From Haliclona indistincta (Eukaryota; Porifera; Demospongiae; Haplosclerida; Chalinidae), in NCBI GenBank assembly GCA_964017065.1, contig OZ024792.1, positions 7,963,385 through 8,027,384 on the forward strand: DNA of 64,000 bases. Reading direction: 5' to 3'. Every line of letters starts with the position of its first letter. Positions within the stretch are counted from its first letter, which is position 1. A program made the translations under genes and the position numbers. Below the pieces are notes generated by a model. The model saw only the letters and a program-made list of their open reading frames with translations. It ran no database searches and had not been told where the DNA came from. Shown piece by piece: positions 2,405 through 57,659 of the stretch.

Positions 2405-4580
2405 ATGGCTACTCCCTCAGTACAGCAGCAGGACCTTCACTGTGGTATATGCTCCAATGTCTTCACTAACCCGCTCATGATGCCTTGCCTTCACTCCTTC
2501 TGTAAGAAGTGTCTTGAACAGCAACTAGAAGAACAGGGCAGCTCTGCTGGCTCCATAAAATGCCCTACCTGTGACACTGTCTCCACACTGCCTAGTGGAG
2601 GTGTAGCTAGTCTCCCCAGCAACCACAGGTTAGCCCATCAAGCAGAGGTGTCCACTTACCAACAAAAGATAGAGGATGGTGGCAACATACCGTGTGACCG
2701 CTGTGTGAAGAAGACAAGTGGAGCAGCAGTCTCCTTCTGCTGTGAGTGCTGCCTCTTCCTATGCAGTTCATGTCAAGAAGACCATCAGTGGTGGAGAGAG
2801 ACTATCAGCCATGAACTAGTGAGTGTTGGAGAGAAGAAAACCAACAGCAAATCAATGATTTATTCTCATAAACCAGTTACGTGTACCAAGCATATGAAGA
2901 AAAAGCTCAAGTTCTACTGTGATACTTGCCAATGTCTGATATGTCGAGATTGCATTGCAATGGAGCACAGCGACCACAAGCGAGTCTACCCAGAAGATGT
3001 TGCAGCAAAGGAGAAGGAGTCAATAATGGAGACCCTCCAGGAAGCAGAGGATGCCATTACTAAGCTGGAAGCTGCCATTACCAGTCGAGATGACATGAAG
3101 AAACTGATCGAAATTCAAAGAGATGAAATGAATGAAGAGATTGCACAAGGGTTCGAAATGATATACGCCTCTCTTAAAGAGAGAGAGGAAGCATTGCACA
3201 GCAAGTGTGAGGAGTTTGCTAACCAGAAGCTATCCTTGCTCTCGATGGAGATGGAAGAAATTGAGAATTTCAAGAGGAGTCTTATCTTTTCAACACAGAT
3301 TGCATCTGAAGTACAAACGTACTCACCAACCGAGCTACTAGGCACCAAGAAGCCAATCCAGGAGCACCTTCATAATAGGCTGGCATTGTTTGCTCGATTG
3401 AATCTAGTGCCCGGTGAGAGTGATGATATTTCTGTTGTTTTTGACAAAACTGCGATAAATGAGGCCATAGCAGAATTGGGTAATGTATTAGTGGCTTGTG
3501 ATCCTGAGCAGTGCACAGTAGAGGAAGGACTGGTCATCCCTGTGGCTACTGTGGGGAAGAAGAGAGAGGTCAAGGTGGCTCTTAGAGATAGCAATGGAGA
3601 GCTAGCATATGTCAAGGTACCCATTAGTGCTAGGGTAGAGGCAGAGGAGAATGGGTCTATGGTACCAGGTTTGAAGATGATGGCCGTGCATTGCTCAGTT
3701 TCCAGACTATGGTAGCTGGTGAGCATAGACTCACTATCAAGGTGAAGGGTAAGCAGCTAGCTGGCAGCCCCTACAAGATATGGTCACGACAGAATGCCAC
3801 ACACGAGAGCGTTTCATCTGGAGGTAAACAATCTTTCAATGTTGGTGGCTACGTTTTTGGTGTAGCTGTTCATGACAATGGAGATGTGTTTGCTAGTAAC
3901 TATAGCAATGGCTGTGTACAAGTGTTCAATAGTGATGGATCACAGAAGCTACAGTTTGGTACAAAAGGCAGTGGAGATGGTCAGCTAAGTAATCCGCAAG
4001 GTCTTGTCATTGTTGGTGAAGTGTTATATGTTGTAGAATACAATAACCATCGTGTGCAGAAGTTCACTCTCACAGGTGAATATCTTGGTCAGTTTGGTAC
4101 CAATGGTTCCAATGAGGGTCAGTTTAGTTGTCCCTGTGGTATCTGTACTGATGGTAGGGGGCGTGTCCTAGTGGCTGATTATAACAACCATATAGGGTAC
4201 AGATCTTCACTGCTGATGGTACCTTTGTCTCATCAATCTCTTGTGGAACATCTCCATATGATGTGGCAGTAGATAACTCTGGCAATATACATGCAACATT
4301 GTACTCATCCAACTGTGTTGCAGTATTCTCCTCTGATGGTAAAAGGCTCACTACCTATCTGTCATCAAATAACTCCAAGTCACCCACTGGTATAACTGTT
4401 GACCAAGATGGTTATCGCTATGTTAGCTGTGTTGAAAGCAATTCCATATGCATCTTCAGTCCAGAAGGAACTTATGTAAACTGCTTCTCTTGTTCTTCTA
4501 ATCCACGATGCATGACCCTTGACAACCATGGCAATGTATATCTTGCTAGTAAAGACCGCCATACCGTCACCAAGTACTAA
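2405..4580 (+). pseudogene. TRIM-NHL (RING, B-box, filamin, NHL) pseudogene, copy 1
   Basis: This matches the three intact TRIM-NHL genes along its whole length, but the frame is broken twice. Near 3668 a 10-bp deletion, relative to the intact copies, sends the frame out just after the filamin-type strand beginning GSMVP. Near 4190 a 2-bp insertion shifts it again inside the NHL propeller. The three resulting pieces (2405-3715, about 3691-4272, about 4263-4580) together cover the whole protein. The N-terminal RING (C-x2-C, CLHSFC, CPTC), both B-boxes and the coiled coil remain intact, so a truncated RING/B-box/coiled-coil product of about 436 residues could still be made if it is transcribed. 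The conserved promoter-like leader and 5'-UTR intron of the other copies are absent. It is most likely a decaying duplicate. Confidence 0.9.
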
Positions 4581-5930: not shown

Positions 5931-7727
5931 TATTTTGAAAGCCCTTGGCTCACCATACAACCACTACTAAAGGTACAAAATGGCTGATCACTGACTCACC
6001 AGCTAGCAGAGATTTTTATTACTCACTAAATAGAGAAACACCATTAGATCAACTCATTCACTTCAGATTTTATCTAACCTCTTCTCATAACATATAATTG
6101 CAATTAATAATGTAGAGCAATTCTAGATATGCTAAAGATATAACCACAACCAGCTCAAAACTGGCTTATAATGGTAATCGATGGGTAAAGAGTAAATGTA
6201 ATTAAACACAATCAGGTGTGCCTAGATAGTGTCTATGGAAACGCAATCAATACTTTACTACATAAAGGGTAACTTAGTAAACAACATAAAGGAGAGAGAC
6301 ATATACAGTATGAACAACACCTGAGGGAAGATGGGTGGAGCTAGTGAGAGAGCCTGGAGCTATAGTGACAATACTGATAGAAGCAGTTACCATTATTAGG
6401 AGTTGCTGTCCATTCAGTTACCCCCCATCCTCAGGACTTGAGCTTCTCAATCAGGACAAAATAAGCAAAAGCTAGGAATTAAGCCTGGGGATGAGGCTAT
6501 TCTCCTGCATTTTTGCAAGTTTCACTAAGATTGTATGTCTACAGTAACTCAAGATAAATTGGGAAAAAATTAATAAGTTTCTCTTTTAGTACTGTATAAT
6601 AAGAAAAGTTGCCGGCAGTCCATATGCTTGTGTATAAACTTAAGACTTCACGGATCTATTTTTCGTGAATGGCACTAAAACTCTCAAAATTTAAATACCT
6701 TGAAAATTATTATAAGTCTATGATAACCATGGCAACATATATCTAGTCAGACAAAATTCATGTGTCACACAGTTACTGTGTGCAGAGACACAGCAGACTA
6801 TATACTATTGTGACACAAATCTGGCGTGATTATTCCTCTTTATGATTCAGTTCCTATATCCTTTAATAAGTCAACAAACATCTAATATTGTGCTTTTTTG
6901 ACTTGCTCTTCTGATGCATGGTCTGATCTGTTAGTGGAGAATGAACTAAGGGTCACTCCTGCATGTTACATGCTAGTGAAGAAATAAGCTACAGCTTGAC
7001 AGCACATTTTTTTGGCTTCTCCAGCTGTCTCCAGTAACTGAACTAGAACCTGAGAGAGAAGGTGATGATGGAATGATAGAGGAGAATAGTGCTTGGTTGA
7101 GTAGAGCAAGCAAGCAAGCAATGGCTGATAGTCTACTCTCTCCAATATGGAGGACACATTAAGTGAGAATGGTCTGGGATCAACCTCTGACCCTAGAGTG
7201 ACTACATATCGAGTGTCGTAGTCAAATTGCATTACCATGGGCACAAAAATTGGTGAACAAAGCGAACCAGGAACTGTCTATTGTGATATGAGGCACAATA
7301 TACAGTAAACCTCTCTTAATGGACACTATAGATATAATGGACAAAAACCACTTGTGCATTTGTTTGTGTGTTGTGCAAATGTGCTTGAACTCTTCTTAAT
7401 CATTTAATTCTGTGTACATGCAAGCATGCTACTCCACCTGTAGCCTAATATTATTGATGTGTGCGCTGATATTCCATTTCCTCTGCCTTTGTTGTGTCCA
7501 TAATTTAGTTAGCTCATGGACCTGATATGAAAAGTTCAAGGCTAGATGAATTAGTGGTCACAGTTTAGTGAGTAAGCTTGTTGACATCAAGTGATAGCTT
7601 GTTTTTGAATTAAAGGTCCATAATGTGTAGAACGCTATATACATGTAGCTTCCTGTTTCTCCACTGATTCCATGATCCTAGTACTCACCTTCTCATGTTC
7701 TCCCTATTTGTTCTTCTCTCTCTACAG

Positions 7728-11764: not shown

Positions 11765-13948
11765 ATGGCTACTCCCTCAGTACAGCAGCAGGACCTTCAC
11801 TGTGGTATATGCTCCAATGTCTTCACTAACCCGCTCATGATGCCTTGCCTTCACTCCTTCTGTAAGAAGTGTCTTGAACAGCAACTAGAAGAGCAGGGCA
11901 GCTCTGCTGGCTCCATAAAATGCCCTACCTGTGACACTGTCTCTACACTGCCTAGTGGAGGTGTAGCTAGTCTCCCCAGCAACCACTGGTTAGCCCATCG
12001 AGCAGAGGTGTCCACTTACCAACAGAAGATAGAGGATGGTGGAAACATACCGTGTGACCGCTGTGTGAAGAAGACAAGTGGAGCAGCAGTCTCCTTCTGC
12101 TGTGAGTGCTGTCTCTTCCTGTGCAGTTCATGTCAAGAAGACCATCAATGGTGGAGAGAGACTATCAGCCATGAACTAGTGAGTGTTGGAGAGAAGAAGA
12201 AAGACATGAACACAAATGTGAAAGTACCTCGTAAACCATTCATGTGCACCAAACACACGAAGGAAGAGCTCATTTTCTATTGCAATACTTGCCAATGTCT
12301 GATTTGTCGAAACTGCATAGTGATGGAGCACAGTGACCACAAGCGAGTCTACCCAGAAGATATCGCAGCAAAGGAGAAGGAGTCAATAATGGAGACCCTC
12401 CAGGAAGCAGAGGATGCCATTACTAAGCTGGAAGCTGCCATTACCAGTCGAGATGACATGAAGAAACTGATCGAAATTCAAAGAGATGAAGTGAATGAGA
12501 AGATCACACAAGAGTTCAAGATGATATATGCCTCTCTTAAATTGAGAGAGGAAGCATTGCACAGCAAGTGTGAGGAGTTTGCTAACCAGAAGCTCACAGT
12601 GCTGTCAATGGAGATTGAAGAAGTTGAGAATCTTAAGAGGAGTCTTATCTTTTCAACACAGATTGCATCTGAAGTACGAACATACTCACCAGCTGAGCTA
12701 CTAGGCACCAAGAAACCAATCCAGGAGCACCTTCAGCATAGGCTGGCATCGTTTGCTCGACTGGATCTTGATCCCGGTGAGAGTAATAACATTTCTGTTG
12801 TTGTTGACAAAACTGTGATAAATGAGGCCATAGCAGAATTGGGTAATGTATATGTTTGTGATTGTGATCCTGAGCAGTGCACAGTAGAGGAAGGACTGGT
12901 CATCCCTGTGGCTACTGTGGGGAAGAAGAGAGAGGTCAAGGTGGCTCTTAGAGATAGCAATGGAGAGCTAGCATGTGTCAAGGTACCCATTAGTGCTAGG
13001 GTAGAGGCAGAGGAGAATGGGTCTATGGTACCAGTTGATATCAGGTTTGAAGATGATGGCCACGCATTGCTCAGTTTCCAGACTATGGTAGCTGGTGAGC
13101 ATAGACTCATTGTCAAGGTGAAGGGTAAGCAGCTAGCTGGCAGCCCCTACAAGATATGGTCACGACAGAATGCCACTCACGAGAGCGTTTCATCTGGAGC
13201 TAAACAATCTTTCAATTTTGGTAGCAATGCTTTTGGTGTAGCTGTTCATCACAATGGAGATGTGTTTGCTAGTAACTATAGCAATGGCTGTATACAAGTG
13301 TTCAATAGTGATGGATCACAGAAGCTACAGTTTGGTACACCAGGCAGTGAAGATGGTCAGTTCTGTAATCCGCATGGTCTTGTCATTGTTGGTGAAGTGT
13401 TGTACGTTGCTGACCGTGGTAACCATCGTGTGCAGAAGTTCACTCTCACAGGTGAATATCTTGGTCAGTTTGGTAGCTATGGTTTCAATGAGGGTCAGTT
13501 TAATAGTCCCCGTGGTATATGTACTGATGGTAGGGGGCGTGTCCTAGTGGCTGATTATGACAACAATAGGATACAGATCTTCACTGCTGATGGTACCTTT
13601 GTCTCATCAATCTCTTGTGGAACAAGTCCATATGATGTGGCAGTGGATAACACTGGCAATATACATGTAACATTGCATTCATCCAACTGTGTTGCAGTTT
13701 TCTCCTCTGATGGTAAACAACTCACTACCTATGGATCAGGCTACATTCCATCGCCCACTGGTATAACTGTTGACCAAGATGGTTATCGCTATGTTAGCTG
13801 TGCTAATAACAATTACATATACATCTTCAGTCCAGAAGGAACATATGTAAAGAGCTTCTCTTGTTCTTCTAATCCACGAAACATGACCCTTGATAACCAT
13901 GGCAATGTATATCTTGCTAGTTATGACCATAATGTCACCAAGTACTAA
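11765..13948 (+). CDS. TRIM-NHL E3 ubiquitin ligase-like protein, copy 2
   Basis: An intact, intronless frame of 727 residues with TRIM2/3/71-type architecture. The RING finger (C13, C16, C28, H30, C33, C36, C53, C56) is a complete C3HC4 set. B-box 1 spans about 97-128 and B-box 2 about 161-192. A Glu/Lys-rich coiled coil covers about 200-310, a filamin-type repeat about 372-469 (ending AGSPYKIWSRQ), and a C-terminal NHL beta-propeller about 479-727 (blades marked NPHGL, SPRGI, SPTGI and VQKF). By family knowledge it should act in the cytoplasm as a RING-dependent E3 ligase, with the propeller binding RNA or protein targets. The start is supported by the conserved leader intron. In B-box 2 this copy has Asn in FYCNTC where the others have Asp. 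Differences from the other copies cluster in the B-box linker and propeller loops. Confidence 0.93.
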   Translation: MATPSVQQQDLHCGICSNVFTNPLMMPCLHSFCKKCLEQQLEEQGSSAGSIKCPTCDTVSTLPSGGVASLPSNHWLAHRAEVSTYQQKIEDGGNIPCDRCVKKTSGAAVSFCCECCLFLCSSCQEDHQWWRETISHELVSVGEKKKDMNTNVKVPRKPFMCTKHTKEELIFYCNTCQCLICRNCIVMEHSDHKRVYPEDIAAKEKESIMETLQEAEDAITKLEAAITSRDDMKKLIEIQRDEVNEKITQEFKMIYASLKLREEALHSKCEEFANQKLTVLSMEIEEVENLKRSLIFSTQIASEVRTYSPAELLGTKKPIQEHLQHRLASFARLDLDPGESNNISVVVDKTVINEAIAELGNVYVCDCDPEQCTVEEGLVIPVATVGKKREVKVALRDSNGELACVKVPISARVEAEENGSMVPVDIRFEDDGHALLSFQTMVAGEHRLIVKVKGKQLAGSPYKIWSRQNATHESVSSGAKQSFNFGSNAFGVAVHHNGDVFASNYSNGCIQVFNSDGSQKLQFGTPGSEDGQFCNPHGLVIVGEVLYVADRGNHRVQKFTLTGEYLGQFGSYGFNEGQFNSPRGICTDGRGRVLVADYDNNRIQIFTADGTFVSSISCGTSPYDVAVDNTGNIHVTLHSSNCVAVFSSDGKQLTTYGSGYIPSPTGITVDQDGYRYVSCANNNYIYIFSPEGTYVKSFSCSSNPRNMTLDNHGNVYLASYDHNVTKY

Positions 13949-15687: not shown

Positions 15688-16002
15688 ATGAATTTGTTTT
15701 GGGCTGGTATGTATTTATCATGATTATTATCAATTATTCATTATTATTTAAATTTAGACCAGCAAATGACTAGTCCTACATATAAAGAGCTGATTGAGCT
15801 GTTGGAGAAAGCTGAGAAATCAGCATCAGAGCCAGGGAATGTACTTTCAACAGCTGAAATCCTCACTGCCAATTTTTCTTGCTTATATCCACGCATCAAA
15901 ATTGGAAGACCAGCACGATTTCTGGAAACAGTTAACAGGATCAATGCTCCTATTGTAAAGGGAAGCCTCGAACTAGGAATCCAGGTCCTGCTCAAACTGA
16001 AG
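15688..16002 (+). CDS. Small two-exon gene or upstream frame of the large protein
   Basis: ATG at 15688 begins a short exon (MNLFWA) that ends at a GTATGT donor (15707). The second exon, 15758-16002, follows a TTTAG acceptor and encodes a soluble, lysine/leucine-rich sequence (TSPTYKELIELLEKAEKS, then KIGRPARFLETVNRIN), ending at a GTATGC donor in phase 0. The next credible acceptor is at 16572. Joining there adds only VDNGH before a stop that overlaps the ATG of the 1,899-residue protein by 11 bases. This could be a 93-residue protein translated from the same transcript as a leader frame, or the first exons of a gene with another partner exon. No known domain is recognised. Confidence 0.45.
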
Positions 16003-16579
16003 GTATGCACAATGTTCCTACATGTTTGTTGCTACCTTACAGTCGACACGCCAAATAACCGGAAGTCCAATACAACACGTACAAATTTATTATCATGCCG
16101 TGCTACCGTGTAGCGTCTATTCCAGGATGTTTGAATTATTCATAAGCAAACTAAACAGTTCATATCTATTGTTATCTTGGTGCTTTTGCTTTTATTTTTG
16201 CAATAAAGTATCTTCATCATCTGCTTTATCAATACAATAATCCCTGTAGCCTTACGCTTTAAACCAGCCTCTGTATCGGAGCTAAACCAAGCACGACACC
16301 GAATTCGTATGCTTCCATAGACTGCGTCAGGAATTTTTTTCTCAACCAGCTTTCAATATTATAATGCATCTCAGCAAATGAACACACACTAAGCTCAATA
16401 TAATACAAATTTCGAGTTGTTCTAGCATGCAATTACTGAACTATGAGCGCTTCAAAGTACGCTTGCGCAATCCCATTTAGACACGCTATCGCCAGCTGGT
16501 CACCTCAGGTATGCTTTGATATTAGCAATAAACAATACTGTATAAACAACTATTATATTCTAATGACGACAGGTAGATA

Positions 16580-19500
16580 ATGGCCACTAGAAGCAGCAAG
16601 CGGCGTCTGTCCTATGATAGCAATGATGACAGTCAGCCAGGAGAGTCAGTTAGCCAAGTATGCACACTTTGTGAATTAGTTCACCAACACACAAGTAAAG
16701 TGCACACATGGCAAAGTCAAAGTGCACGCGATGAAGCCTTTAAACTTGGTATAATACCAAGTGACGTGATATGCCGCCCATGTCGTGACGACATTCGTAG
16801 AATTGGTAGTGATTCGAACCATGTACCTAGGTGGGAGAAGAAAAGGCAAGGGTTAACCAAATGCAGCATACATGGCTGTGGTGATGTATGCTTCGCCAAA
16901 TTGCAAGTTACCAATGTCAAGGAACATTTGGAAAAAATGCATTTTGACGTAAAATTCAAAGAAAATGTACCTTTCCCAACCCCCTTGTGCAATAGCCACT
17001 ATCATATTGTATACCACGCAATTCACCAACCTTGGCAAAGAAACTGCCAAACATGTGGGGCATATTTGAGGCATGAAACATCCAGGACATGCCCAAATGC
17101 TGCTTTTATCAAAAAGCATTTGCAAGACAATGCTGCCTTTGAGGGCAATCTTGAAGTTGATGATCGAGTATGTTTCTCTTGCTACAAGTCACATCTGATA
17201 ATCTTACAAAATGAGAAACAAATTAGCTATGATAGTGACCTTCGATCATTGCTAGAAAACATCCGTCGCAAAATAACTGCAACTAACTCACCTAGCACAT
17301 TACTACAAGTCAGGGAACTGGCTCTGGACAAAACTGTCCTCTATGTAGGTGAAGAATTGCTCAATGGAATGGCAGTTATTTTGCCCGATGCTGTTGATTA
17401 TTTCCAACAAGCATGCCATGACAACAGTTTAGATAGCCAACATCAGTTAGGAGCAGAACCAAAAGTGTCATCAATTTGGTTACTAGGCAATCTAACCAAT
17501 GCTTTACAACAACACCTAGAGTACTCATGTGCGGCACGCAAGTATGGTGTCCTTATGTATCGTAGTGGTGTCAACTTAGCTCCTCTGTTGCAAAGGTCAT
17601 TGTACCAGCTACGCCAGCACAAAAAGAAAGACCCCACAAATGTAGAATTCCAAAAAGTGCTGGATGGCATTAACAACAAAATTCTAGAGCAGTGTCAACA
17701 TTTTTTGACCAAATATCACTCTTTCTGCGAAGATTACAGCACCATAGATATCAATGAAGTCATTAATCATGATATAAATCCTGAGCTATGGAATGCTGTA
17801 TGCTCAATGACTAGGTCAGCATCAGAGAGAAAGGGCATTGCAAACAAACAGGCAGAAAAAGAACAACACAAAAAGCGGCTAAGAAGATTTTTTCTTTTGT
17901 GCATGGTGATGTTTTGTGTTGATGATCGCTGTTCAATGCCTATGCACACTATGCTAGCAGATGTTGTTGAAAGTCAAGGAGGTACTAGATTTTTGATTCA
18001 ACTACTAAACAAGCTTGGGATATGTTCATCCCATGACACCTTGGATAGGCATATTCAGAGTAAGATTGAAGCAACACATACAAAGCATCCTTGTCATAGT
18101 TTTTTTAATTCGAACTCTTTCACCGTTGTCTCTGTTGACAACGTTGACTTCATGCACAGCTTTGCTCAAGTATTTAAAGGCAGTACCAACAGCAGTTGGC
18201 ATGGGACAACAGTACAGTTAGTACAACCCCTTCCAGCAATCGAACCAGTACAGCAAACCCAGACTCTACCACCAGTACAGCCAACCCAGACTCTACCACC
18301 AGTACAGCCACCCCAGAATCTACCACCAGTACAGCCACCCCAGAATCTACCACCAGTACAGCCAACCCAGACTCTACCACTAGTACAGCCGCCCCAGAAT
18401 CTACCACCAGTACAGCCACCCCAGAATCTACCACCAGTACAGCCAACCCAGACTCTACCACCAGTACAGCCACCCCAGAATCTACCACCAGTACAGCCAA
18501 CCCAGATTCTACCACCAGTACAGCCAACCCAGAATCTACCACCAGTACAGCCAACCCAGACTCTACCACCAGTACAGCCAACCCAGAATCTACCACCAGT
18601 ACAGCCAACCCAGACTCTACCACCAGTACAGCCAACCCAGACTCTACCACCAGTACAGCCAACCCAGACTCTACCAGCAGTACAGCCAACCCAGACTCTA
18701 CCACCAGTACAGCCAACCCAGACTCTACCACCAGTACAGCCAACCCAGACTCTACCACCAGTACAGCAAAGGCTGTCTGTGCTAGAAATTGAACCTATAC
18801 AACAGCTTACTTATCAGTCATCAACGAGAAAAAGAACTGAGAGAAGTTCACCCATACAATCTCCACTTAAGCTCACTCAATCACCAATAGCTAAAACACG
18901 TCCTCGAGCTCGTTCTGGAACTGAATGCTTAGTAGAGATGGACCAACGGCTTACATGTAGAACCAAATTTGTAGATGTTCAACACTCAGATCATGTCAAA
19001 GACCTGGAACGTGTAACTATTACCGACTTTTTAACTAGTGAAACAGAAAACGAGTCACTTGACGATTTGAACCAGGACTTATTTACGTACATGCTACAGA
19101 AGCAGGCCATTGAAGAAAGTGAATCTGATCAACCATTTATGAATATGCAAGACTACTTTAGCACAACTAGAGTAACACACACTGAAAAGTCTGAGGTTGC
19201 TTATTTTGAGGTTATGAATGCAGTATCCGACAGCAAGGACACACAGATTGAAATGCTACATAGCTTGTTCGACAAGTTTATCAGAGGTAGCACTAGAGAG
19301 TATCTGGTTGTCGAGGGAGACCAAAAGTTGTATGACATAATACAAAGTTTGAAGTTTGAATATGGTAAGGAACTAGATTGGGTTATTCCCTTTCCGGGAG
19401 ATTGGCATCTACTGAAGAACTTCCAGGTGGCTCTAATCAAGCCATACTTTGATGCGGGGATAAAAGACCTGGCAAAGGCAGCTGGTTACCCAGTGGCATC

Positions 19501-22279
19501 AATTGAAATATGTGGGCAATTTAAAAGAACTCACCATTTCTTGTTAGAAACATGGGAAGCCTTGTACAGAGCTATGATCACAATTTTCCTGCATGAACAG
19601 CAAGGTGAGTCAGCAGAAAATCCTCTAATAGCTCTATCAGAACAGATTATAACAAATGCAGGCAGAGGTACGCTCAGAGAATGCATAGCTATTCAATCAC
19701 AACACTTCCACGAGTTCAAATTGTTTATACAAAAACGAGCTCGTACAGATAGTACCTGGAAATTCTGGGTGCAATTTGTCTTTCAAGATCTAAATGCCTA
19801 TGTTGGCTTGTTTTTGTCTATAAGAAGTGGAGACTGGTACCTCCGAACTGCCTGCATAAAGCAGATGGCAGCAGTGTTCTGTGCATTTGATCATTCAAAT
19901 TATCGCAGACTTATATCAAGACATTTAACAGATATAGTTACTATGCCAGACTCTGTGTTAGAAATGTTTAAGCAAGGTGGTTTTGTGGTATCTATCACTG
20001 GTAGAGAATGGCACTCAGTAGGAATTGATGAAGGTCATGAAATGATGATAAACAAGGCATGTAAAATGTCTATCATCAGACCAACACCTGACTACATCAA
20101 CAGAATAGTCCGTTATCTCCCGTACAGAAACAAGGCAATAGAGAATCTCACTAACTATCTTTTCCAAGAGGACAAACAACGTGAAGAGAAATTGTCATTA
20201 TTGTCTAAAAAACCAGATGATGTGAAACATGAGCATAACATCTGTTGCCAAATCAAAGCAATTCAAGACTGTGGCATGCTACAGTATGCTTCTACTGACA
20301 GAGGGTTAATCAATCCATTTACAAACAAAACTGCTACAGCACAGCAAGCATGTGATTTACTCAGTTTTCGTACTACTGGCCAAAAGGAATTTCTTAATGA
20401 CGTTGAGTTTCGAATTCTAAAAACACCAAGTACAGCAGCAACAATAAGAAAGCGCCGATTGCAGACTTTCTCAACAAAAAAAGTTAACAAACAACGCTAT
20501 AGCCAAATCGAAAAAGACCGAAATCTAATCTTAGCGTGCATGCGCAAAAAGATAAAATGGTCAATTCGTACAAGTACCCCAATGACAAATGGAGGAGAAC
20601 AACTAATACCCTTCCCACTGGCTATATCAGATCATGACGGTAACCCTAAAAAGGGGCAAAAAAGTCAGATGACCAAGACACTAGCTAGTAGGTATCAGCA
20701 GAATGCTGTCCTACTCAATACCTACCCAATAGGATGGCAGCCACAGTGCTGTGTGATGGAAGGCATGTTCATCATCAACACAGCTCCAATTGGGTGCCAT
20801 AGAACATATAGAGATTATGCAGAATTTTTAATAACCAGATACATTAGTCCACATTTGATAAAGGGTTGTACAGAAGTACATCTACTGTTCGACAATGTAG
20901 GACAACTCAGTAGCACACCAAAATTTTTTGAGCACCAAAGAAGGGATGAACTAGCAACAATTGCTGCTGGGCACAGTTGTAAAATAATACATGCAACAAC
21001 AATTCTGCCGACAAAGTGGAGAGAAAATCTTTTGCATTGCCGTAAGTGCAAGCGTACATTAGTATGTTTTCTAGCTCAGTTTATGCTACAGAACATCCAT
21101 GCTCACCTTTCTTCACACCAAAAATTCTATGTTGCCGGTGCATTTACTGAGCAGTTGGCAAACACTTGTTGGTTTGTGCAGGGAAAAAGTAGTCCAGAGC
21201 CAGATCCCACCTACTCCTGCAATGGAGAGGAAGCAGACACACTGATCTGGTTACACACAACCAAAACAACATGTGAAAGGATTTTAGTTGTGTCAGCAGA
21301 CACAGATGTCTATATGATAGGCTTGACTCGACCATGTGCCATTAATAAAGATGTTATCGTACAAGTTAGCAAGATCAATTCACGAGAATTAAAGCTACTT
21401 AGCCTAAAGAATCTGATTGGGGCAGTTCACAATGACCCTGACATGGCACATATTCCACTATCAAGTCGGCTGGCTGTAGTACAAACTTTGTTTGTAGTTA
21501 CAGGCTGTGACTACATATCATTTTTTGGTGGTATAGGCAAGGCTACCTTTCTGAAGCACTTTTTCCAACATGCAGAATTCGTAACAGGACAGACACACTA
21601 CACAAAGGGCTCTCTGGCAGACACACTTCTGCGAAACAATAGCTACAAAGAAGGGTTTATGGCTTTTCTTCGTCTTGTTGGAACCGTTTATTATCATAAA
21701 CATGCGTCCATATTTACATCAGATTCGCCTGAAACCCATTTCAAAGGCTATCTTTGTGTCTCAGATGTAGTTAAACAGCACAGTGATTGGCTAGAAGAGA
21801 TTAGACAGAGTATGTGGGCCAGAATTAGTTTTGAAGATGAAATGATTCCATCAACAGAAGCACTGTGGCGACATTGGAAACGCTCATGTTGGGTAATAGA
21901 TATGTGGAGCCAGGCTGATCAAAATACAATGACAGTAGCTAGGCTCACTGATTTTGGCTGGAGTATCACTCACGATAGTATCCTTACAGTTGATTGGGAT
22001 AGTAGTGAAAATCAGGAGGCTATAAAAGGAAGAGTACTGCTATTCACAAAAGGCTGTAAGTGCAAGACCGGTTGTGCGACTGGAAGGTGTGCCTGTAAAA
22101 AGAAGGGACACAACTGTACTGAAGGCTGTTCGTGTCTAAATTGCCTAAATCTACCAAACGCTACTATGGATACAAGAGAATGTACAACAAATAATATTGA
22201 AGACAGAACTATAGAGTGGAGCAGTGATTCTGATCAGTCAGACGATGAAGAGAGTGATATAGAACAAGTACATGGATAG
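16580..22279 (+). CDS. 1,899-residue PIN/FEN-like and CXC-domain protein, repeat-derived type
   Basis: A single uninterrupted frame just after a likely acceptor (AG at 16571-16572). N-terminal cysteine pairs (CTLC at 28-31, CRPC near 65, further C/H clusters to about 210) suggest zinc binding. Residues about 551-731 are a 9-residue Pro-Gln repeat. About 880-1330 is a conserved-looking region with VIPFPGDWHLLKNFQ and IDEGHEMMINKA. About 1430-1670 resembles a PIN/FEN-1-like nuclease fold: LLFDN, EEADTLIWLH, SADTDVYMIGL and GCDYISFFGGIGKATF supply regularly spaced acidic residues and a GIG helix-hairpin motif. The C-terminus (about 1825-1857: CKCKTGC, CACKKKGHNC, CSCLNC) is a CXC/tesmin-type metal-binding, DNA-binding cluster. 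An acidic tail follows; a possible AATAAA lies near 22360. From memory, similar long intronless proteins occur in many copies in cnidarian and sponge genomes; their function is not known to me. Nuclease activity and mobility are inferences. Confidence 0.85.
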   Translation: MATRSSKRRLSYDSNDDSQPGESVSQVCTLCELVHQHTSKVHTWQSQSARDEAFKLGIIPSDVICRPCRDDIRRIGSDSNHVPRWEKKRQGLTKCSIHGCGDVCFAKLQVTNVKEHLEKMHFDVKFKENVPFPTPLCNSHYHIVYHAIHQPWQRNCQTCGAYLRHETSRTCPNAAFIKKHLQDNAAFEGNLEVDDRVCFSCYKSHLIILQNEKQISYDSDLRSLLENIRRKITATNSPSTLLQVRELALDKTVLYVGEELLNGMAVILPDAVDYFQQACHDNSLDSQHQLGAEPKVSSIWLLGNLTNALQQHLEYSCAARKYGVLMYRSGVNLAPLLQRSLYQLRQHKKKDPTNVEFQKVLDGINNKILEQCQHFLTKYHSFCEDYSTIDINEVINHDINPELWNAVCSMTRSASERKGIANKQAEKEQHKKRLRRFFLLCMVMFCVDDRCSMPMHTMLADVVESQGGTRFLIQLLNKLGICSSHDTLDRHIQSKIEATHTKHPCHSFFNSNSFTVVSVDNVDFMHSFAQVFKGSTNSSWHGTTVQLVQPLPAIEPVQQTQTLPPVQPTQTLPPVQPPQNLPPVQPPQNLPPVQPTQTLPLVQPPQNLPPVQPPQNLPPVQPTQTLPPVQPPQNLPPVQPTQILPPVQPTQNLPPVQPTQTLPPVQPTQNLPPVQPTQTLPPVQPTQTLPPVQPTQTLPAVQPTQTLPPVQPTQTLPPVQPTQTLPPVQQRLSVLEIEPIQQLTYQSSTRKRTERSSPIQSPLKLTQSPIAKTRPRARSGTECLVEMDQRLTCRTKFVDVQHSDHVKDLERVTITDFLTSETENESLDDLNQDLFTYMLQKQAIEESESDQPFMNMQDYFSTTRVTHTEKSEVAYFEVMNAVSDSKDTQIEMLHSLFDKFIRGSTREYLVVEGDQKLYDIIQSLKFEYGKELDWVIPFPGDWHLLKNFQVALIKPYFDAGIKDLAKAAGYPVASIEICGQFKRTHHFLLETWEALYRAMITIFLHEQQGESAENPLIALSEQIITNAGRGTLRECIAIQSQHFHEFKLFIQKRARTDSTWKFWVQFVFQDLNAYVGLFLSIRSGDWYLRTACIKQMAAVFCAFDHSNYRRLISRHLTDIVTMPDSVLEMFKQGGFVVSITGREWHSVGIDEGHEMMINKACKMSIIRPTPDYINRIVRYLPYRNKAIENLTNYLFQEDKQREEKLSLLSKKPDDVKHEHNICCQIKAIQDCGMLQYASTDRGLINPFTNKTATAQQACDLLSFRTTGQKEFLNDVEFRILKTPSTAATIRKRRLQTFSTKKVNKQRYSQIEKDRNLILACMRKKIKWSIRTSTPMTNGGEQLIPFPLAISDHDGNPKKGQKSQMTKTLASRYQQNAVLLNTYPIGWQPQCCVMEGMFIINTAPIGCHRTYRDYAEFLITRYISPHLIKGCTEVHLLFDNVGQLSSTPKFFEHQRRDELATIAAGHSCKIIHATTILPTKWRENLLHCRKCKRTLVCFLAQFMLQNIHAHLSSHQKFYVAGAFTEQLANTCWFVQGKSSPEPDPTYSCNGEEADTLIWLHTTKTTCERILVVSADTDVYMIGLTRPCAINKDVIVQVSKINSRELKLLSLKNLIGAVHNDPDMAHIPLSSRLAVVQTLFVVTGCDYISFFGGIGKATFLKHFFQHAEFVTGQTHYTKGSLADTLLRNNSYKEGFMAFLRLVGTVYYHKHASIFTSDSPETHFKGYLCVSDVVKQHSDWLEEIRQSMWARISFEDEMIPSTEALWRHWKRSCWVIDMWSQADQNTMTVARLTDFGWSITHDSILTVDWDSSENQEAIKGRVLLFTKGCKCKTGCATGRCACKKKGHNCTEGCSCLNCLNLPNATMDTRECTTNNIEDRTIEWSSDSDQSDDEESDIEQVHG
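18231..18772 (+). repeat. 27-bp minisatellite coding a 9-residue Pro-Gln repeat
   Basis: About 20 units of 27 bp encode variants of PTQTLPPVQ inside the large frame. Because 27 is divisible by three, another plus frame (Ser/Thr-rich, 18196-18792) and a minus frame (Val/Leu-rich, 18174-18758) stay open through it. These are shadows. The array probably forms a flexible linker of variable length. Confidence 0.95.
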
Positions 22280-22356
22280 TATTTAACTACTTCTTTCTAA
22301 CTGTACTATATGTGTTATATAATCCCACATTTTTTAACGATTATTATGTTTATAGC

Positions 22357-22539
22357 TTAATAAAACTCAGTTGTCACGTTTGTAACCGTCAGGAAATTTT
22401 TTCTCGCAACAGATACACGCTCATAACTGGTAAAACACATTAAGCAATATTCAATGTAAAACATACCTTGAATATAAGTTGTTCCACAGCATGTACGAGG
22501 CGTTAGCTTCCCGAGAATTCTGTTCCTCCACGACGCCAT
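22357..22539 (-). CDS. Possible 60-residue small protein
   Basis: An ATG at 22539 opens a frame to a stop at 22357 beginning MASWRNRILGKLTPRTCCGT. A GTATGT donor-like site follows the codons for TTYIQ, so it may be the first exon of a spliced gene rather than a complete gene. It is antisense to the 3' flank of the large protein and points away from the gene at 23142. Basic N-terminus, no recognised domain. Low confidence. Confidence 0.25.
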   Translation of the reverse strand: MASWRNRILGKLTPRTCCGTTYIQGMFYIEYCLMCFTSYERVSVARKNFLTVTNVTTEFY

Positions 22540-23141
22540 TTTCAAGTGTAGTACAATAAACGACGGAAGACGGCAAACACAACAGCCAACTGAAGTCAAG
22601 ATAACCATAGAAATAAACTAAAGTTCTCCCTGGACCGTTCTGGTTATGTTTTTAAGTCCTCTATCGTCGGGATAACGTACAAAAGAACGTTCTTCACTAG
22701 CAACCAGACACACCTCAAACGCTCCATTTTGTGTTTACTCGTGACGTCACCAAAATAATAAATTTCTGCTTGGCGTGTCGACTGCCTTATGCTGACTATT
22801 ATTAGCGGCCACTAGATTTTAGTTTTAGTAAGATTTGGGTTCATTTTATATTATAATGGTAACCATCGTGAGACATTAGTGCAAATAAAATTAGTATGTA
22901 TAACTAAAACTCTCTAATAATACCACCGAACTTTAATATTGTAATGAGATTCACACCGAATTTATTATTGAGGGCAAGGTTTGAGGTGTACTGTATGTGT
23001 AGACATATCCAACCTGCAAGCATGACAGCTAGCATTACAGTGTATAATTAAATGTTTCCCCAAGGATTTCTGTAATTGGTGAAGTGCGTGTACAAATTGA
23101 TCATAGTAGTTTTTCTACATCTAGAATCTCAGCCGTTTCCC
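22540..23141. other. Intergenic, no feature
   Basis: Lies between divergent small frames; no further coding sequence or repeat structure was recognised. Confidence 0.4.
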
Positions 23142-30131: not shown

Positions 30132-32294
30132 ATGGCTACTCCCTCAGTACAGCAGCAGGACCTTCACTGTGGTATATGCTCCAATGTCTTCACTAACCCG
30201 CTCATGATGCCCTGCCTTCACTCCTTCTGTAAGAAGTGTCTTGAACAGCAACTAGAAGAACAGGGCAGCTCTGCTGGCTCCATAAAATGCCCTACCTGTG
30301 ACACTGTCTCTACACTGCCTAGTGGAGGTGTAGCTAGTCTCCCCAGCAACCACTGGTTAGCCCATCAAGCAGAGGTGTCCACTTACCAACAGAAGATAGA
30401 GGATGGTGGAAACATACCATGTGACCGCTGTGTGAAGAAGACAAGTGGAGCAGCAGTCTCCTTCTGCTGTGAGTGCTGCCTCTTCCTGTGCAGTTCATGT
30501 CAAGAGAACCACCAGTCATGGCGTGAAATGGCTAACCATGAACTAGTCAGCACTGTTGGAGAGAAAAAAGTGAATGAAAAAATAAATATTCCTCGTAAAC
30601 CATTCATGTGCACCAAACACACGAAGGAAGAGCTCAAGTTCTACTGTGATACTTGCCAATGTCTGATTTGTCGAGACTGCATTGCAATGGAGCACAGCGA
30701 CCACAAGCGAGTCTACCCAGAAGATATCGCAGCAAAGGAGAAGGAGTCAATAATGGAGACCCTCCAGGAAGCAGAGGATGCCATTACAAAGATGGAAGCT
30801 GCCATTACCAGTCGAGATGACATGAAAAAACTGATCGAAATTCAAAGAGATGAAGTGAATGAGATGATTGCGCAAGAGTTCAAGATGATATATGCCTCTC
30901 TTAAAGAGAGAGAGGAAGCATTGTACAGCAAGTGTGAGGAGTTTGCTAACCAGAAGCTCACAGTTCTGTCGATGGAGATTGAAGAAGTTGAGAATCTTAA
31001 GAGGAGTCTTATCTTTTCAACACAGAGTGCATCTGAAGTACGAACATACTCACCAGCCGAGCTACTAGGCACCAAGAAAGCAATCCAGGAGCACCTTCAG
31101 AATAGGCTGGCATCGTTTGCTCGACTGGATCTTGATCCCGGTGAGAGTAATGACATTTCTGCTGTTGTCAACAAAACTGCGATAAATGAGGCCATAGCAG
31201 AATTGGGTAATGTATTAGTGGCTTGTGATCCTGAGCAGTGTACAGTAGAGGAAGTCCCTGTGGCTACTGTGGGGAAGAAGAGAGAGGTCAAGGTGGCTCT
31301 TAGAGATAGCAATGGAGAGCTAGCATGTGTCAAGGTACCCATTAGTGCTAGGGTAGAGGCAGAGGAGAATGGGTCTATGGTACCAGTTGATATCAGGTTT
31401 GAAGATGATGGCCGTGCATTGCTCAGTTTCCAGACTATGGTAGCTGGTGAGCATAGAGTCATTATCAAGGTGAAGAATAAGCAGCTAGCTGGCAGCCCCT
31501 ACAAGATATGGTCACGACAGAATGCCACTCACGAGAGCATATTATCTGGAGCTAAACAATCTTTCATGGTCAATAACTGCTTTGGTGTAGCTGTTCATCA
31601 TAATGGAGATGTGTTTGCTAGTAATCATAATGGTTGTTGTATACAAGTGTTCAATAGTGATGGATCACAGAAGCTACAGTTTGGTACATCAGGCAGTGGA
31701 GATGGTCAGCTAAGTAATCCAATAGGTGTCACCATCATTGGTGAAGTGTTATATGTTGTAGATTACAATAACCATCGTGTGCAGAAGTTCACTCTCACAG
31801 GTGAATATCTTGGTCAGTTTGGTAGTCCTGGTTCCAATGATGGTCAGTTTAATGGTCCCTATGGTATCTGTACTGATGGTAGGGGGCGTGTCCTAGTGGC
31901 TGATTATGGCAACAATAGGGTACAGATCTTCAATGGTGATGGTACATTTGTCTCATCAATCTCTGCATCAAATCCATATGATGTGGCAATAGATAACACT
32001 GGTAATATTCATGTAACATTGTGCTCATCCAACTATGTTGCAGTATTCTCCTCTGATGGTAAACAACTCGCTACCTATGGATCAGGCTACACTACAACAC
32101 CCACTGGTATAACTGTTGACCAAGATGGTTATCGCTATGTTAGCTGTGAAAACAATTACATATACGTCTTCAGTCCAGAAGGAACATATGTAAACTGCTT
32201 CTCTTGTCCTTCTAACCCACGTTGCATGACCCTTGATAACCATGGCAATGTATATCTTGCTAGTTACGGCAGCCATAATGTCACCAAGTACTAA
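30132..32294 (+). CDS. TRIM-NHL E3 ubiquitin ligase-like protein, copy 3
   Basis: An intact 720-residue frame with the same domain order as the gene at 11765: complete C3HC4 RING, two B-boxes, coiled coil, filamin-type repeat and NHL propeller. It is shorter because of small in-frame losses, for example four residues (GLVI) before the filamin repeat, and a changed first blade (SFMVNNCFGVAVHHNG). The B-box linker differs from the others (EKKVNEKINIPRKP), and the B-box 1 tail reads SCQENHQSWREMANHE instead of the EDHQWWRETISHE form. AATAAA occurs at about 32342. Expected function is a cytoplasmic RING E3 ligase with a propeller recognition surface; target unknown. Confidence 0.93.
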   Translation: MATPSVQQQDLHCGICSNVFTNPLMMPCLHSFCKKCLEQQLEEQGSSAGSIKCPTCDTVSTLPSGGVASLPSNHWLAHQAEVSTYQQKIEDGGNIPCDRCVKKTSGAAVSFCCECCLFLCSSCQENHQSWREMANHELVSTVGEKKVNEKINIPRKPFMCTKHTKEELKFYCDTCQCLICRDCIAMEHSDHKRVYPEDIAAKEKESIMETLQEAEDAITKMEAAITSRDDMKKLIEIQRDEVNEMIAQEFKMIYASLKEREEALYSKCEEFANQKLTVLSMEIEEVENLKRSLIFSTQSASEVRTYSPAELLGTKKAIQEHLQNRLASFARLDLDPGESNDISAVVNKTAINEAIAELGNVLVACDPEQCTVEEVPVATVGKKREVKVALRDSNGELACVKVPISARVEAEENGSMVPVDIRFEDDGRALLSFQTMVAGEHRVIIKVKNKQLAGSPYKIWSRQNATHESILSGAKQSFMVNNCFGVAVHHNGDVFASNHNGCCIQVFNSDGSQKLQFGTSGSGDGQLSNPIGVTIIGEVLYVVDYNNHRVQKFTLTGEYLGQFGSPGSNDGQFNGPYGICTDGRGRVLVADYGNNRVQIFNGDGTFVSSISASNPYDVAIDNTGNIHVTLCSSNYVAVFSSDGKQLATYGSGYTTTPTGITVDQDGYRYVSCENNYIYVFSPEGTYVNCFSCPSNPRCMTLDNHGNVYLASYGSHNVTKY

Positions 32295-35707: not shown

Positions 35708-37888
35708 ATGGCTACTCCCTCAGTACAGCAGCAGGACCTTCACTGTGGTGTATGCTCCAATGTCTTCACTAACCCGCTCATGATGCCTTGCCTTCACTCC
35801 TTCTGTAAGAAGTGTCTTGAACAGCAACTAGAAGAACAGGGCAGCTCTGCTGGCTCCATAAAATGCCCTACCTGTGACACTGTCTCTACATTGCCTAGTG
35901 GAGGTGTAGCTAGTCTCCCCAGCAACCACTGGTTAGCCCATCAAGCAGAGGTGTCCACTTACCAACAGAAGATAGAGGATGGTGGAAACATACCATGTGA
36001 CCGCTGTGTGAAGAAGACAAGTGGAGCAGCAGTCTCCTTCTGCTGTGAGTGCTGCCTCTTCCTATGCAGTTCATGTCAAGAAGACCATCAATGGTGGAGA
36101 GAGACTATCAGCCATGAACTAGTGAGTGTTGGAGAGAAGAAGAAAGACATAAACACAAACGTGAAAGTACCTCGCAAACCATTCATGTGCACCAAACACA
36201 CGAAGGAAGAGCTCAAGTTCTACTGTGATACTTGCCAATGTCTGATTTGTCGAGACTGCATAGTGATGGAGCACAGCGACCACAAGCGAGTCTACCCAGA
36301 AGATGTCGCAGCAAAGGAGAAAGAGTCAATAATGGAGACCCTCCAGGAAGCAGAGGATGCCATTACAAAGCTGGAAGCTGCCATTACCAGTCGAGATGAC
36401 ATGAAGAAACTGATAGAAATTGAAAGAGACGAAGTGAATGAGAAGATTGCGCAAGAGTTCAAAATGATATATGCCTCTCTTCAAGAGAGAGAGGAAGCAT
36501 TGCAAAGCAAGTGTGAGGAGTTTGCTAACCAGAAGCTCACAGTATTGTCGATGGAGATTGAAGAAGTTGAGAATCTCAGGAGGAGTCTTATCTTTTCAAC
36601 ACAGACTGCATCTGGAGTACGAACATACTCACCAGCCGAGCTACTAGGCACCAAGAAACCAATCCAGGAGCACCTTCAGAATAGGCTGGCATCGTTTGCT
36701 CGACTGGATCTTGATCCCGGTGAGATTGATAACATTTCTGTTGTTGTTGACAAAACTGCGATAAGTAAGGCCATAGCAGAATTTGGTAATGTATTAGTGG
36801 CTTGTGATCCTGAGCAGTGTACAGTGGAGGAAGGATTGGTCATCCCTGTGGCTACTGTGGGGAAGAAGAGAGAGGTCAAGGTGGCTCTTAGAGATAGCAA
36901 TGGAGAGCTAGCATGTGGCAAGGTACCCATTAGTGCTAGGGTAGAGGCAGAGGAGAATGGGTCTATGGTACCAGTTGATATCAGGTATGAAGATGATGGC
37001 CACGCATTGCTCAGTTTCCAGACTATGGCAGCTGGTGAACACAGACTCATTGTCAAGGTGAAGAATAAGCAGCTAGCTGGCAGCCCCTACAAGATATGGT
37101 CACGACAGAATGCCACTCACGAGAGCGTTTCATCTGTAGGTAAACAATCTTTCAATGTTGGTGGCTCTGTTTTTGGTGTAGCTGTTCATGACAATGGAGA
37201 TGTGTTTGCTAGTAACTATAGCAATGGCTGTATACAAGTGTTCAATAGTGATGGATCACAGAAGCTACAGTTTGGTACACCAGGCAGTGGAGAGGGTCAG
37301 CTAAGTAATCCATTTGGTCTTGTCATTCTTGATGAAGTGTTGTATGTTGTTGACAGTGGTAACCATCGTGTGCAGAAGTTCACTCTCACAGGTGAATATC
37401 TTGGTCAGTTTGGTACCAATGGTTCCAATGAGGGTCAGTTTAATAGTCCCTTTGGTATCTGTACTGATGGTAGGGGGCGTGTCCTAGTGGCTGATTATAA
37501 CAACCGTAGGGTACAGGTTTTCACTGGTGATGGTACCTTTGTCTCATCATTCTCTTGTGGAACATCTCCATATGATGTGGCAGTAGATAACACTGGCAAT
37601 GTTCATGCAACATTCATCTCATCCAACTATGTTGCAATATTCTCTTCTGATGGTAAACAACTCACTACCTATGGATCAGGCTACCTTAAATCACCCACTG
37701 GTATAACTGTTGACGAAGATGGTTATCGCTATGTTAGCTTTGGTAGCAATTACATATGCATCTTCAATCCAGAAGGAACATATATAAAAGGCTGCGGTTG
37801 TTCTTCTAATCCACAATGCATGACCCTTGATAACCATGGCAATGTATATCTTGCTAGTTACAACGACAATAATGTCACCAAGTACTAA
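35708..37888 (+). CDS. TRIM-NHL E3 ubiquitin ligase-like protein, copy 4
   Basis: An intact 726-residue frame with complete RING, B-box 1, B-box 2, coiled coil, filamin-type repeat and NHL propeller. The RING differs by a single conservative change (CGVCSNVF). The propeller carries many copy-specific substitutions: SGEGQLSNPFGLVILDE, FNSPFGI, and a last blade reading SFGSNYICIFNPEG then KGCGCSSNP. Its leader and 5'-UTR intron match copies 2 and 3. Function as for the family; which copies are expressed cannot be told from sequence. Confidence 0.93.
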   Translation: MATPSVQQQDLHCGVCSNVFTNPLMMPCLHSFCKKCLEQQLEEQGSSAGSIKCPTCDTVSTLPSGGVASLPSNHWLAHQAEVSTYQQKIEDGGNIPCDRCVKKTSGAAVSFCCECCLFLCSSCQEDHQWWRETISHELVSVGEKKKDINTNVKVPRKPFMCTKHTKEELKFYCDTCQCLICRDCIVMEHSDHKRVYPEDVAAKEKESIMETLQEAEDAITKLEAAITSRDDMKKLIEIERDEVNEKIAQEFKMIYASLQEREEALQSKCEEFANQKLTVLSMEIEEVENLRRSLIFSTQTASGVRTYSPAELLGTKKPIQEHLQNRLASFARLDLDPGEIDNISVVVDKTAISKAIAEFGNVLVACDPEQCTVEEGLVIPVATVGKKREVKVALRDSNGELACGKVPISARVEAEENGSMVPVDIRYEDDGHALLSFQTMAAGEHRLIVKVKNKQLAGSPYKIWSRQNATHESVSSVGKQSFNVGGSVFGVAVHDNGDVFASNYSNGCIQVFNSDGSQKLQFGTPGSGEGQLSNPFGLVILDEVLYVVDSGNHRVQKFTLTGEYLGQFGTNGSNEGQFNSPFGICTDGRGRVLVADYNNRRVQVFTGDGTFVSSFSCGTSPYDVAVDNTGNVHATFISSNYVAIFSSDGKQLTTYGSGYLKSPTGITVDEDGYRYVSFGSNYICIFNPEGTYIKGCGCSSNPQCMTLDNHGNVYLASYNDNNVTKY

Positions 37889-40402: not shown

Positions 40403-41108
40403 AAAAGTTTTAATAAAAAAAACTAAAAAGTGAAGGGATGACGCTTGCAAAAGTAAAGGAACAAGATGGGATGATGCTTGCAAAAGTAAAGGAACAAGAT
40501 GGAAAAAAGTAAAGGAACAAGAGGGATGATGCTTGCAAAAGTAAAGGAACAAGATGGGATGATGCTTGCAAAAGTGAAGTATGAAAAGTCCCAAGTATCC
40601 CTACATCAGCGGCTTGCTGCGATGGCGTGCAACTGACAAATGCGGAATCCTCTTCCTATACCTTTTACAACCGTCAATTACTTAATCGGACTGCGTCCTC
40701 CAAACCACAGATACCTCTAGTTGTTTACAACCGTCAGTTATTTCATCGGACTGCGTCCTCCAAACACAGATACCTCTAGTTGTTTACAACCATCAGTTAC
40801 TTCATCGGACTGCGTCCTCCTAACACAGATACCTCTAGTTGTTTACAACCGTCAGTTACTTCATCGGACTGCGTCCTCCTTCAAGCCGCTGATGTAGGGA
40901 TACTTGGGACTTTTCATACTTCACTTTTGCAAGCATCATCCCATCTTGTTCCTTTACTTTTGCAAGCATCATCCCTCTTGTTCCTTTACTTTTTTCCATC
41001 TTGTTCCTTTACTTTTGCAAGCATCATCCCATCTTGTTCCTTTACTTTTGCAAGCGTCATCCCTTCACTTTTTAGTTTTTTTTATTAAAACTTTTTTACT
41101 TTACTTGT
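40384..41108. repeat. Large inverted repeat, about 230-bp arms
   Basis: The left arm (about 40384-40614) is the reverse complement of the right arm (about 40880-41108). Each contains the 33-bp GCAAGCATCATCCC array and the border TGTAGGGAT. The 265-bp spacer is the 62-bp tandem array also seen at 1-230. Confidence 0.85.
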
Positions 41109-55530: not shown

Positions 55531-55817
55531 CTGAGAACAGACAGAGATATCATATGTCATGTATAACACCTAATTAATAATTATACCAACCACATCCAAA
55601 ATACGGGCACCAGCCATGCTGACAATATAAATGTTTTGATGCAATGTTTTGGAAATTAATGAGCAAAAAGAGTTTTGAAGATTACTTTAGTCACTTTTCT
55701 AAAGTGCAATCACAAAGCCTTCAGAGAAGTGCTCCTGGAATGTGAAAAACTGGATTTAACAATTTAACTCTTAAGTTAACTCTCTTCAGTGGCACTGGCA
55801 CACTGCACTCACTCAAC

Positions 55818-57655
55818 CAGTGTCTTATCAGTGGCACCCTCCACTAACTCAACCATGCTGCATAGCATAGTAACTGCATAGCCCAATGTCCAACCAATGT
55901 CTTATCAGTGGCACACTGCACTCACTCAACCATGCTGCATAGCATAGTAACTGCATAGCCCAATGTCCAACCAGTGTCTTATCAGTGGCACACTGCACTA
56001 ACTCAACCATGCTGCATGGCATAGTAACTGCATAGCCCAATGTCCAACCAGTGTCTTATCAGTGGCACACTGCACTAACTCAACCATGCTGCATAGCATA
56101 GTAACTGCATACCTCAATGTCCAACCAGTGTCTTATCAGTGGCACCCTCCACTAACTCAACCATGCTGCATAGCATAGTAACTGCATAGCCCAATGTCCA
56201 ACCAGTGTCTTATCAGTGGCACACTGCACTAACTCAACCATGCTGCATGGCATAGTAACTGCATAGCCCAATGTCCAACCAGTGTCTAATTATCAGTGGC
56301 ACACTGCACTAACTCAACCATGCTGCATAGCATAGTAACTGCATACCTCAATGTCCAACCAGTGTCTTATCAGTGGCACACTGCACTAACTCAACCATGC
56401 TGCATGGCATAGTAACTGCATAGCCCAATGTCCAACCAGTGTCTTATCAGTGGCACACTGCACTAACTCAACCATGCTGCATAGCATAGTAACTGCATAC
56501 CTCAATGTCCAACCAGTGTCTTATCAGTGGCACCCTCCACTAACTCAACCATGCTGCATAGCATAGTAACTGCATAGCCCAATGTCCAACCAGTGTCTTA
56601 TCAGTGGCACACTGCACTAACTCAACCATGCTGCATGGCATAGTAACTGCATAGCCCAATGTCCAACCAGTGTCTAATTATCAGTGGCACACTGCACTAA
56701 CTCAACCATGCTGCATAGCATAGTAACTGCATACCTCAATGTCCAACCAGTGTCTTATCAGTGGCACACTGCACTAACTCAACCATGCTGCATCATGGCA
56801 TAGTAACTGCATAGCCCAATGTCCAACCAGTGTCTTATCAGTGGCACACTGCACTAACTCAACCATGCTGCATAGCATAGTAACTGCATACCTCAATGTC
56901 CAACCAGTGTCTTATCAGTGGCACCCTCCACTAACTCAACCATGCTGCATAGCATAGTAACTGCATAGCCCAATGTCCAACCAGTGTCTTATCAGTGGCA
57001 CACTGCACTAACTCAACCATGCTGCATGGCATAGTAACTGCATAGCCCAATGTCCAACCAGTGTCTAATTATCAGTGGCACACTGCACTAACTCAACCAT
57101 GCTGCATAGCATAGTAACTGCATACCTCAATGTCCAACCAGTGTCTTATCAGTGGCACACTGCACTAACTCAACCATGCTGCATGGCATAGTAACTGCAT
57201 AGCCCAATGTCCAACCAGTGTCTTATCAGTGGCACACTGCACTAACTCAACCATGCTGCATAGCATAGTAACTGCATACCTCAATGTCCAACCAGTGTCT
57301 TATCAGTGGCACCCTCCACTAACTCAACCATGCTGCATAGCATAGTAACTGCATAGCCCAATGTCCAACCAGTGTCTTATCAGTGGCACACTGCACTAAC
57401 TCAACCATGCTGCATGGCATAGTAACTGCATAGCCCAATGTCCAACCAGTGTCTAATTATCAGTGGCACACTGCACTAACTCAACCATGCTGCATAGCAT
57501 AGTAACTGCATACCTCAATGTCCAACCAGTGTCTTATCAGTGGCACACTGCACTAACTCAACCATGCTGCATGGCATAGTAACTGCATACCCCAATGTCC
57601 AACCAGTGTCTTATCAGTGGCACACTGCACTCACTCAACCATGCTGCATAGCATA
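55818..57655. repeat. 77-bp satellite with 388-bp five-monomer higher-order repeat
   Basis: About 24 monomers of 77 bp (CCAACCAGTGTCTTATCAGT...). Monomer types are distinguished by CATGGC (G), CATACCTC (T), CACCCTCC (C) and an AATTA insertion with CATACCTC (A). They recur in the order G-T-C-G-A four times. Block starts are 55967, 56355, 56743, 57134 and 57522, giving spacings of 388, 388, 391 and 388. A degenerate monomer trails to about 57720. Confidence 0.97.
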
Positions 57656-57659
57656 GTGT

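Follow-up and report, generated by a model that had tools for sequence, protein, structure and literature searches.

What does a 5.7-kb uninterrupted reading frame do in a sponge genome, and to what kind of genetic unit does it belong? The frame lies in a 64,000-bp stretch of the Haliclona indistincta genome (contig OZ024792.1, positions 7,963,385 to 8,027,384; hereafter, the window). An earlier note, made from the sequence alone, pointed out the frame and suggested that it encoded a transposon or domesticated-transposon protein. We confirmed the frame, which encodes 1,899 amino acids, and conclude that it is very probably the transposase gene of a recently mobile 6.7-kb DNA transposon with terminal inverted repeats (TIRs), of the AcademX kind. 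The first half of the suggestion stands, whereas the TIRs, the empty sites and the recent movement speak against domestication. Where there had been a giant anonymous gene, there is now a mobile element defined by its exact ends, by target duplications and by empty sites.

Ends of the element, unoccupied sites and related copies

The 15-bp TIRs match perfectly, and the pentanucleotide CCTTA adjoins the element at both ends (Table 1). Searches of the genome (144 Mb, 46 contigs) with the flanks identified four other places where the host sequence is present but the element is not. In each of these, the matches to the left and right flanks share exactly five bases, and these are CCTTA in all four cases. 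On the right, identity between the flank and the unoccupied copies is 98-100%; the alignment spans the full 300 bases at three sites and 126 bases at the fourth. On the left, the overall score is 86% because each of the unoccupied copies holds ~46 extra bases away from the joint, and the aligned pieces are 98.1-99.6% identical. Since CCTTA occurs once, and the element not at all, in four close copies of the host sequence, the insertion is real, and it is recent relative to these copies. The host sequence around the element (15740-16039 and 22785-23084) is itself repeated, here and at the four unoccupied places, and includes a short coding-like frame. Within the element, 19-bp direct repeats near the two ends are identical in 18 of 19 positions.

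Many related copies begin or stop exactly where the element does, as found in end searches that yielded at least 47 genome matches to its left 1,361 bases and at least 30 to its right 515 bases. The exact terminal repeat is present in 25 copies, compared to 0 for the reversed control. Among the matches listed, most related copies are partial or internally deleted, and several, 1.8-3.1 kb long, are internal deletion derivatives that keep both ends. Target duplications were read after pairing copies by the nearest opposite end on the contig, which gave 10 same-family copies besides the one in the window; this set leaves out exact terminal repeats without a partner (C3:10684384, C3:13804013, C4:9260359, C5:5050326, C6:8053445 and C7:9192443) as well as left-end or right-end matches without a terminus. 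Perfect 4-bp duplications flank 8 of the 10 (AGTT, CATG, TATC, TACT, GATA, TGTA, TATT and GTCT), with the right TIR partly missing in the TACT copy. In three of these eight, the ends are 12.3, 13.8 and 20.8 kb apart, so that other sequence must lie inside. A copy of a second family (~66% DNA identity) has the 4-bp duplication TCTG, and a relative at 38% protein identity combines a 1,808-aa open frame with the termini CAGTCGCGTCGCAACCGT and the 4-bp duplication GTTC. The comparison of paralogue flanks proposed in the earlier note showed that the paralogues share boundaries of the element and also have target duplications. In the 38%-identical relative (L072, C2:11177200-11184600), the flanking sequences at positions 192-345 and 6839-6927 match each other in inverted orientation; its insertion target may therefore have been another inverted-repeat element.

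In a genome protein search with residues 828-1899 as the query, 46 matches were listed (43 scored of 331 candidates), of which 4 covered at least 1,000 of the 1,072 query residues and 19 contained stop codons. The dN/dS ratio is 0.65-1.69 in comparison with the two closest copies, which differ by very few changes (dS about 0.01-0.02), and 0.106 in comparison with one second-family copy (dS 1.08). Such figures are what one expects of a mobile lineage kept under selection while its individual copies drift.

Domain architecture of the encoded protein

From the N-terminus, the protein consists of a cysteine-rich region, a DDE transposase core that includes a linker of 9-aa repeats, a FEN1/EXO1/XPG-type nuclease domain and a CXC module. 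The earlier note described a FEN/PIN-like core; a nuclease of this type is predicted, but the main catalytic part appears to be the DDE transposase upstream, which had been overlooked. This region includes DUF6589 (residues 862-1158; E 1.7e-9, Pfam), a domain matched in 21 of the 22 aligned proteins, the window protein included. The structure model predicts an RNase-H-type fold with an all-helical insert preceding the catalytic Glu. No Foldseek match to this model was obtained at E <= 0.001; when the Foldseek candidates were aligned with VIA-align, the P-element (6p5a) and Hermes transposases came out closest. We propose D520, D914 and E1154 as the putative catalytic triad. In every aligned row with letters at the D520 position, the residue is Asp, and D914 and E1154 are invariant both in the consensus and in the alignment of distant relatives. 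E1154 and D914 were preferred over E1151 and D941 because the latter two vary in distant relatives. The PTQTLPPVQ-type linker sits between strands 2 and 3 and is structureless, with low confidence, in the model. We found no mention of DUF6589 in the literature searched; a DDE transposase function is proposed here for a DUF6589 protein.

In agreement with the earlier note, the structure model predicts a PIN/FEN fold for the nuclease domain. The alignments show conservation of seven acids (E1394, D1438, E1551, D1553, D1574, D1576 and D1644) and of K1448/R1455; the complete metal-binding acidic set of the FEN/XPG superfamily is present, as judged by motif alignment rather than by active-site superposition. 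A GxGK motif that follows GCDY is kept in most aligned rows; in FEN1, GxGK is part of the helix-two-turn-helix DNA-binding feature. Identity to the FEN1, EXO1, XPG, GEN1 and XRN structures is 8-13% among the matches listed. Together, the model and the motifs predict that the domain belongs to the FEN/XPG type.

The C-terminal cysteine cluster was also correctly noticed. It has the nine-cysteine pattern of the Tesmin/TSO1/LIN54 CXC domain (PF03638), with a sub-threshold Pfam score of 15.8 bits against a curated cut-off of 23.5. The CXC model matches 8 of the 22 aligned proteins, including that of the window, at E <= 0.1 (best, 1.7e-4), and the pattern is found in 34 of 53 listed homologues. In the N-terminal region, C156, C159, C198 and C201 are nearly invariant and the consensus contains further CxxC pairs, which makes zinc binding probable.

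These 53 homologues are what remains of the 54 proteins among the matches listed after removal of a fungal protein (P0054), for which the match rests on the proline/glutamine repeat only. The sole hit of the PDB sequence search, 9e5c, is likewise confined to this repeat and is meaningless. Transposase motifs (GDWH, DExHE) and nuclease motifs (DTD, GCDY) occur together in 44 of the 53; of the nine proteins that lack one motif set, eight are no longer than 1,340 aa and the ninth has 1,735 aa. A homologue of Halichondria panicea, a sponge, is among the listed matches (37% identity). Starting from the distant relative P0060, a further search listed 14 proteins when the query is counted, and the lancelet Branchiostoma belcheri is the source of one.

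Table 1. Features of the transposon and its unoccupied sites (window positions, unless another contig is named)
Feature	Position	Strand	Remark
Complete DNA transposon, 6,745 bp	16040..22784	+	TIRs, target duplication, four unoccupied sites, co-terminal relatives
Left TIR CAGTCGACACGCCAA, 15 bp	16040..16054	+	25 exact genome copies
Right TIR	22770..22784	-	perfect complement of left
Target site duplication CCTTA, left copy	16035..16039
Target site duplication CCTTA, right copy	22785..22789		single in four unoccupied sites
Left subterminal direct repeat CGTCAGGAATTTTTTTCTC	16325..16343	+	possible transposase site
Right subterminal direct repeat CGTCAGGAAATTTTTTCTC	22387..22405	+
Transposase ORF, 1,899 aa	16580..22279	+	uninterrupted
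N-terminal Cys-rich region, residues 28-201	16661..17182	+	CxxC pairs
Predicted DDE transposase domain, residues 431-1188	17870..20143	+	includes DUF6589
D520, proposed first catalytic Asp (xDN.D)	18137..18139	+	within model strand 1
27-bp tandem repeat, 19.4 copies	18244..18767	+	encodes PTQTLPPVQ-type linker
D914, proposed second catalytic Asp	19319..19321	+	immediately past model strand 4
E1154, proposed catalytic Glu (DExHE)	20039..20041	+	helix after helical insert of model
Predicted FEN1/EXO1/XPG-type nuclease domain, residues 1360-1789	20657..21946	+	predicted fold and conserved acids
CXC module, residues 1824-1857	22049..22150	+	nine cysteines
Unoccupied sites	C3:11904727-11905367, C4:6065133-6065773, C4:7646063-7646703, C4:7649213-7649679

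Elsewhere in the window, there are four uninterrupted RING/B-box frames on the same strand (2405-3715, 11765-13948, 30132-32294 and 35708-37888), a local expansion of TRIM-type genes. Three of these contain filamin and NHL repeats (TRIM2/3-like), and the frame at 2405-3715 ends at 436 aa without them. Two minisatellite blocks, 40-393 and 40435-41081, share units of 33 bp and about 60 bp, which are present in both orientations inside the latter block and recur at the window start. A satellite array at 55814-57675 is built of 24 copies of a 77-bp unit, with longer periods of 311 and 388 bp; GC skew is -0.26 in the 2-kb bin 56001-58000.

Affinity with AcademX and a possible transposition mechanism

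AcademX is said to be a lineage of Academ DNA transposons set out by Kojima in 2020, and Academ elements carry an XPG-type nuclease according to the older literature. In the literature searched, we found no mention of Academ and XPG together. In the accessible text of one source (PMC10045372), duplications of 3 or 4 bp are given for AcademX and of 9 or 10 bp for AcademH, and are related to the encoded nuclease and helicase, respectively. With its DDE/D transposase of predicted RNase-H fold, its encoded nuclease in place of the helicase of AcademH, and its 4-bp duplications, seen in 8 of 10 same-family copies and in both distant copies compared, the window family resembles AcademX as described there. 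The earlier note, which knew of no described mechanism, missed a matching superfamily that has been described; we found no worked-out role for the AcademX nuclease in the accessible portions of the literature searched, where the only remark was that it may relate to duplication length (PMC10045372). Like the window element, Academ elements are several kb long, averaging 5,565 bp in a library curated for bivalves, going by the accessible part of that report (PMC10294476). Excerpts of other papers report Academ elements in whitefly (PMC9143410) and putative nonautonomous Academ copies in a mushroom (PMC8290104). We class the element as a new family within a known kind and not as a domesticated gene, AcademX having been compared by description only; the CXC module and the 9-aa repeat linker may set it apart from the published members.

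The domain content suggests how such an element might move. The N-terminal cysteine-rich region, the C-terminal CXC module or both would bind the terminal and subterminal repeats, possibly the 19-bp ones. The DDE domain would cut the 3' ends and join them to the target strands at points offset by 4-5 bp, and the FEN-type domain, as a structure-specific 5' nuclease, would remove the flanking donor DNA from the 5' (non-transferred) ends. At the joined branch, the donor DNA would have the form of a 5' flap, and FEN-type trimming would therefore leave a simple insertion, with host repair filling the gap and generating the duplication of 4-5 bp. Deletion derivatives that retain both ends could be mobilized by the same protein. 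That one polypeptide unites 3' cutting and joining by a DDE domain with 5'-flap cutting by a FEN1-type domain is put forward tentatively.

Several points weigh against the interpretation as a whole: the duplication of the window copy itself is 5 bp, compared to the 3 or 4 bp of AcademX; 2 of the 10 same-family copies (C7:12154493 and C8:1409432) have no duplication; and 5'-side trimming by the FEN-type domain, the least certain step of the mechanism, is a somewhat doubtful proposition. Membership in another superfamily, or in an undescribed one, with a likeness to AcademX in domain content only, is improbable, but the likeness does rest on a description and not on the sequences of named Academ elements, DUF6589 is absent from the literature searched, and the accessible AcademX description (PMC10045372) includes neither a CXC module nor a 5-bp duplication. 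The combination of DDE transposase, nuclease and 4-bp duplications nevertheless fits that description, and the length is similar to the bivalve mean (PMC10294476, in part).

Most unlikely of all is a domesticated transposase gene that serves the host and has ceased to move, even though the long frame is intact, the deep comparison indicates purifying selection and the closest copies elsewhere, among the matches listed, are fragments or deletion derivatives. Domestication would entail loss of TIRs and duplications and a fixed locus; here, the frame still lies within TIRs and a target duplication, and the four unoccupied paralogous sites count strongly against it at this locus. The dN/dS values of 0.65-1.69 for the two closest copies and the stops in 19 of the 46 protein matches also speak against it. 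For the nuclease domain, a role outside the transposition chemistry, in repair or anti-silencing (XRN-like action on RNA, or clean-up of gaps and flaps), is rather unlikely. Against it, VIA-align gives EXO1 and FEN1 the higher scores, on a shorter aligned segment, and the GxGK motif, conserved in most rows, is part of a DNA-binding feature in FEN1.

Compared to known systems, the transposase core shares with the P-element and hAT (Hermes) transposases, according to the model, the RNase-H-type fold with the all-helical insert before the catalytic Glu. P and hAT elements generate 8-bp duplications and, to our knowledge, have no FEN-type nuclease domain; the window family has duplications of 4-5 bp, and assignments to P/hAT and to Zisupton/KDZ were dropped because the duplications of those groups are 8 bp. 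The nuclease domain has the predicted fold of FEN1/EXO1/XPG/GEN1 and XRN but, in contrast to these, is fused to a transposase. It resembles FEN1-type nucleases, as these are generally known, in its active-site acids, the identically spaced Lys/Arg pair and GxGK after GCDY, with Glu at the equivalent of FEN1 D34 in the window clade and Asp at that of E160. If the proposed mechanism of this AcademX-like element is correct, it would be, as far as we know, the first case of a FEN fold acting as a transposition nuclease. Because the window frame is intact and its insertion recent, the family offers a practical start for asking why a transposase carries such a domain. A mechanistic analogy would be Tn7, in which one nuclease, TnsB, handles the 3' ends and joining and another, TnsA, the 5' ends. 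TnsA is a separate protein with a restriction-enzyme-like fold, whereas the window element would combine both activities in one polypeptide with a FEN fold, as a eukaryotic, unrelated counterpart of the TnsA/TnsB division of labor.
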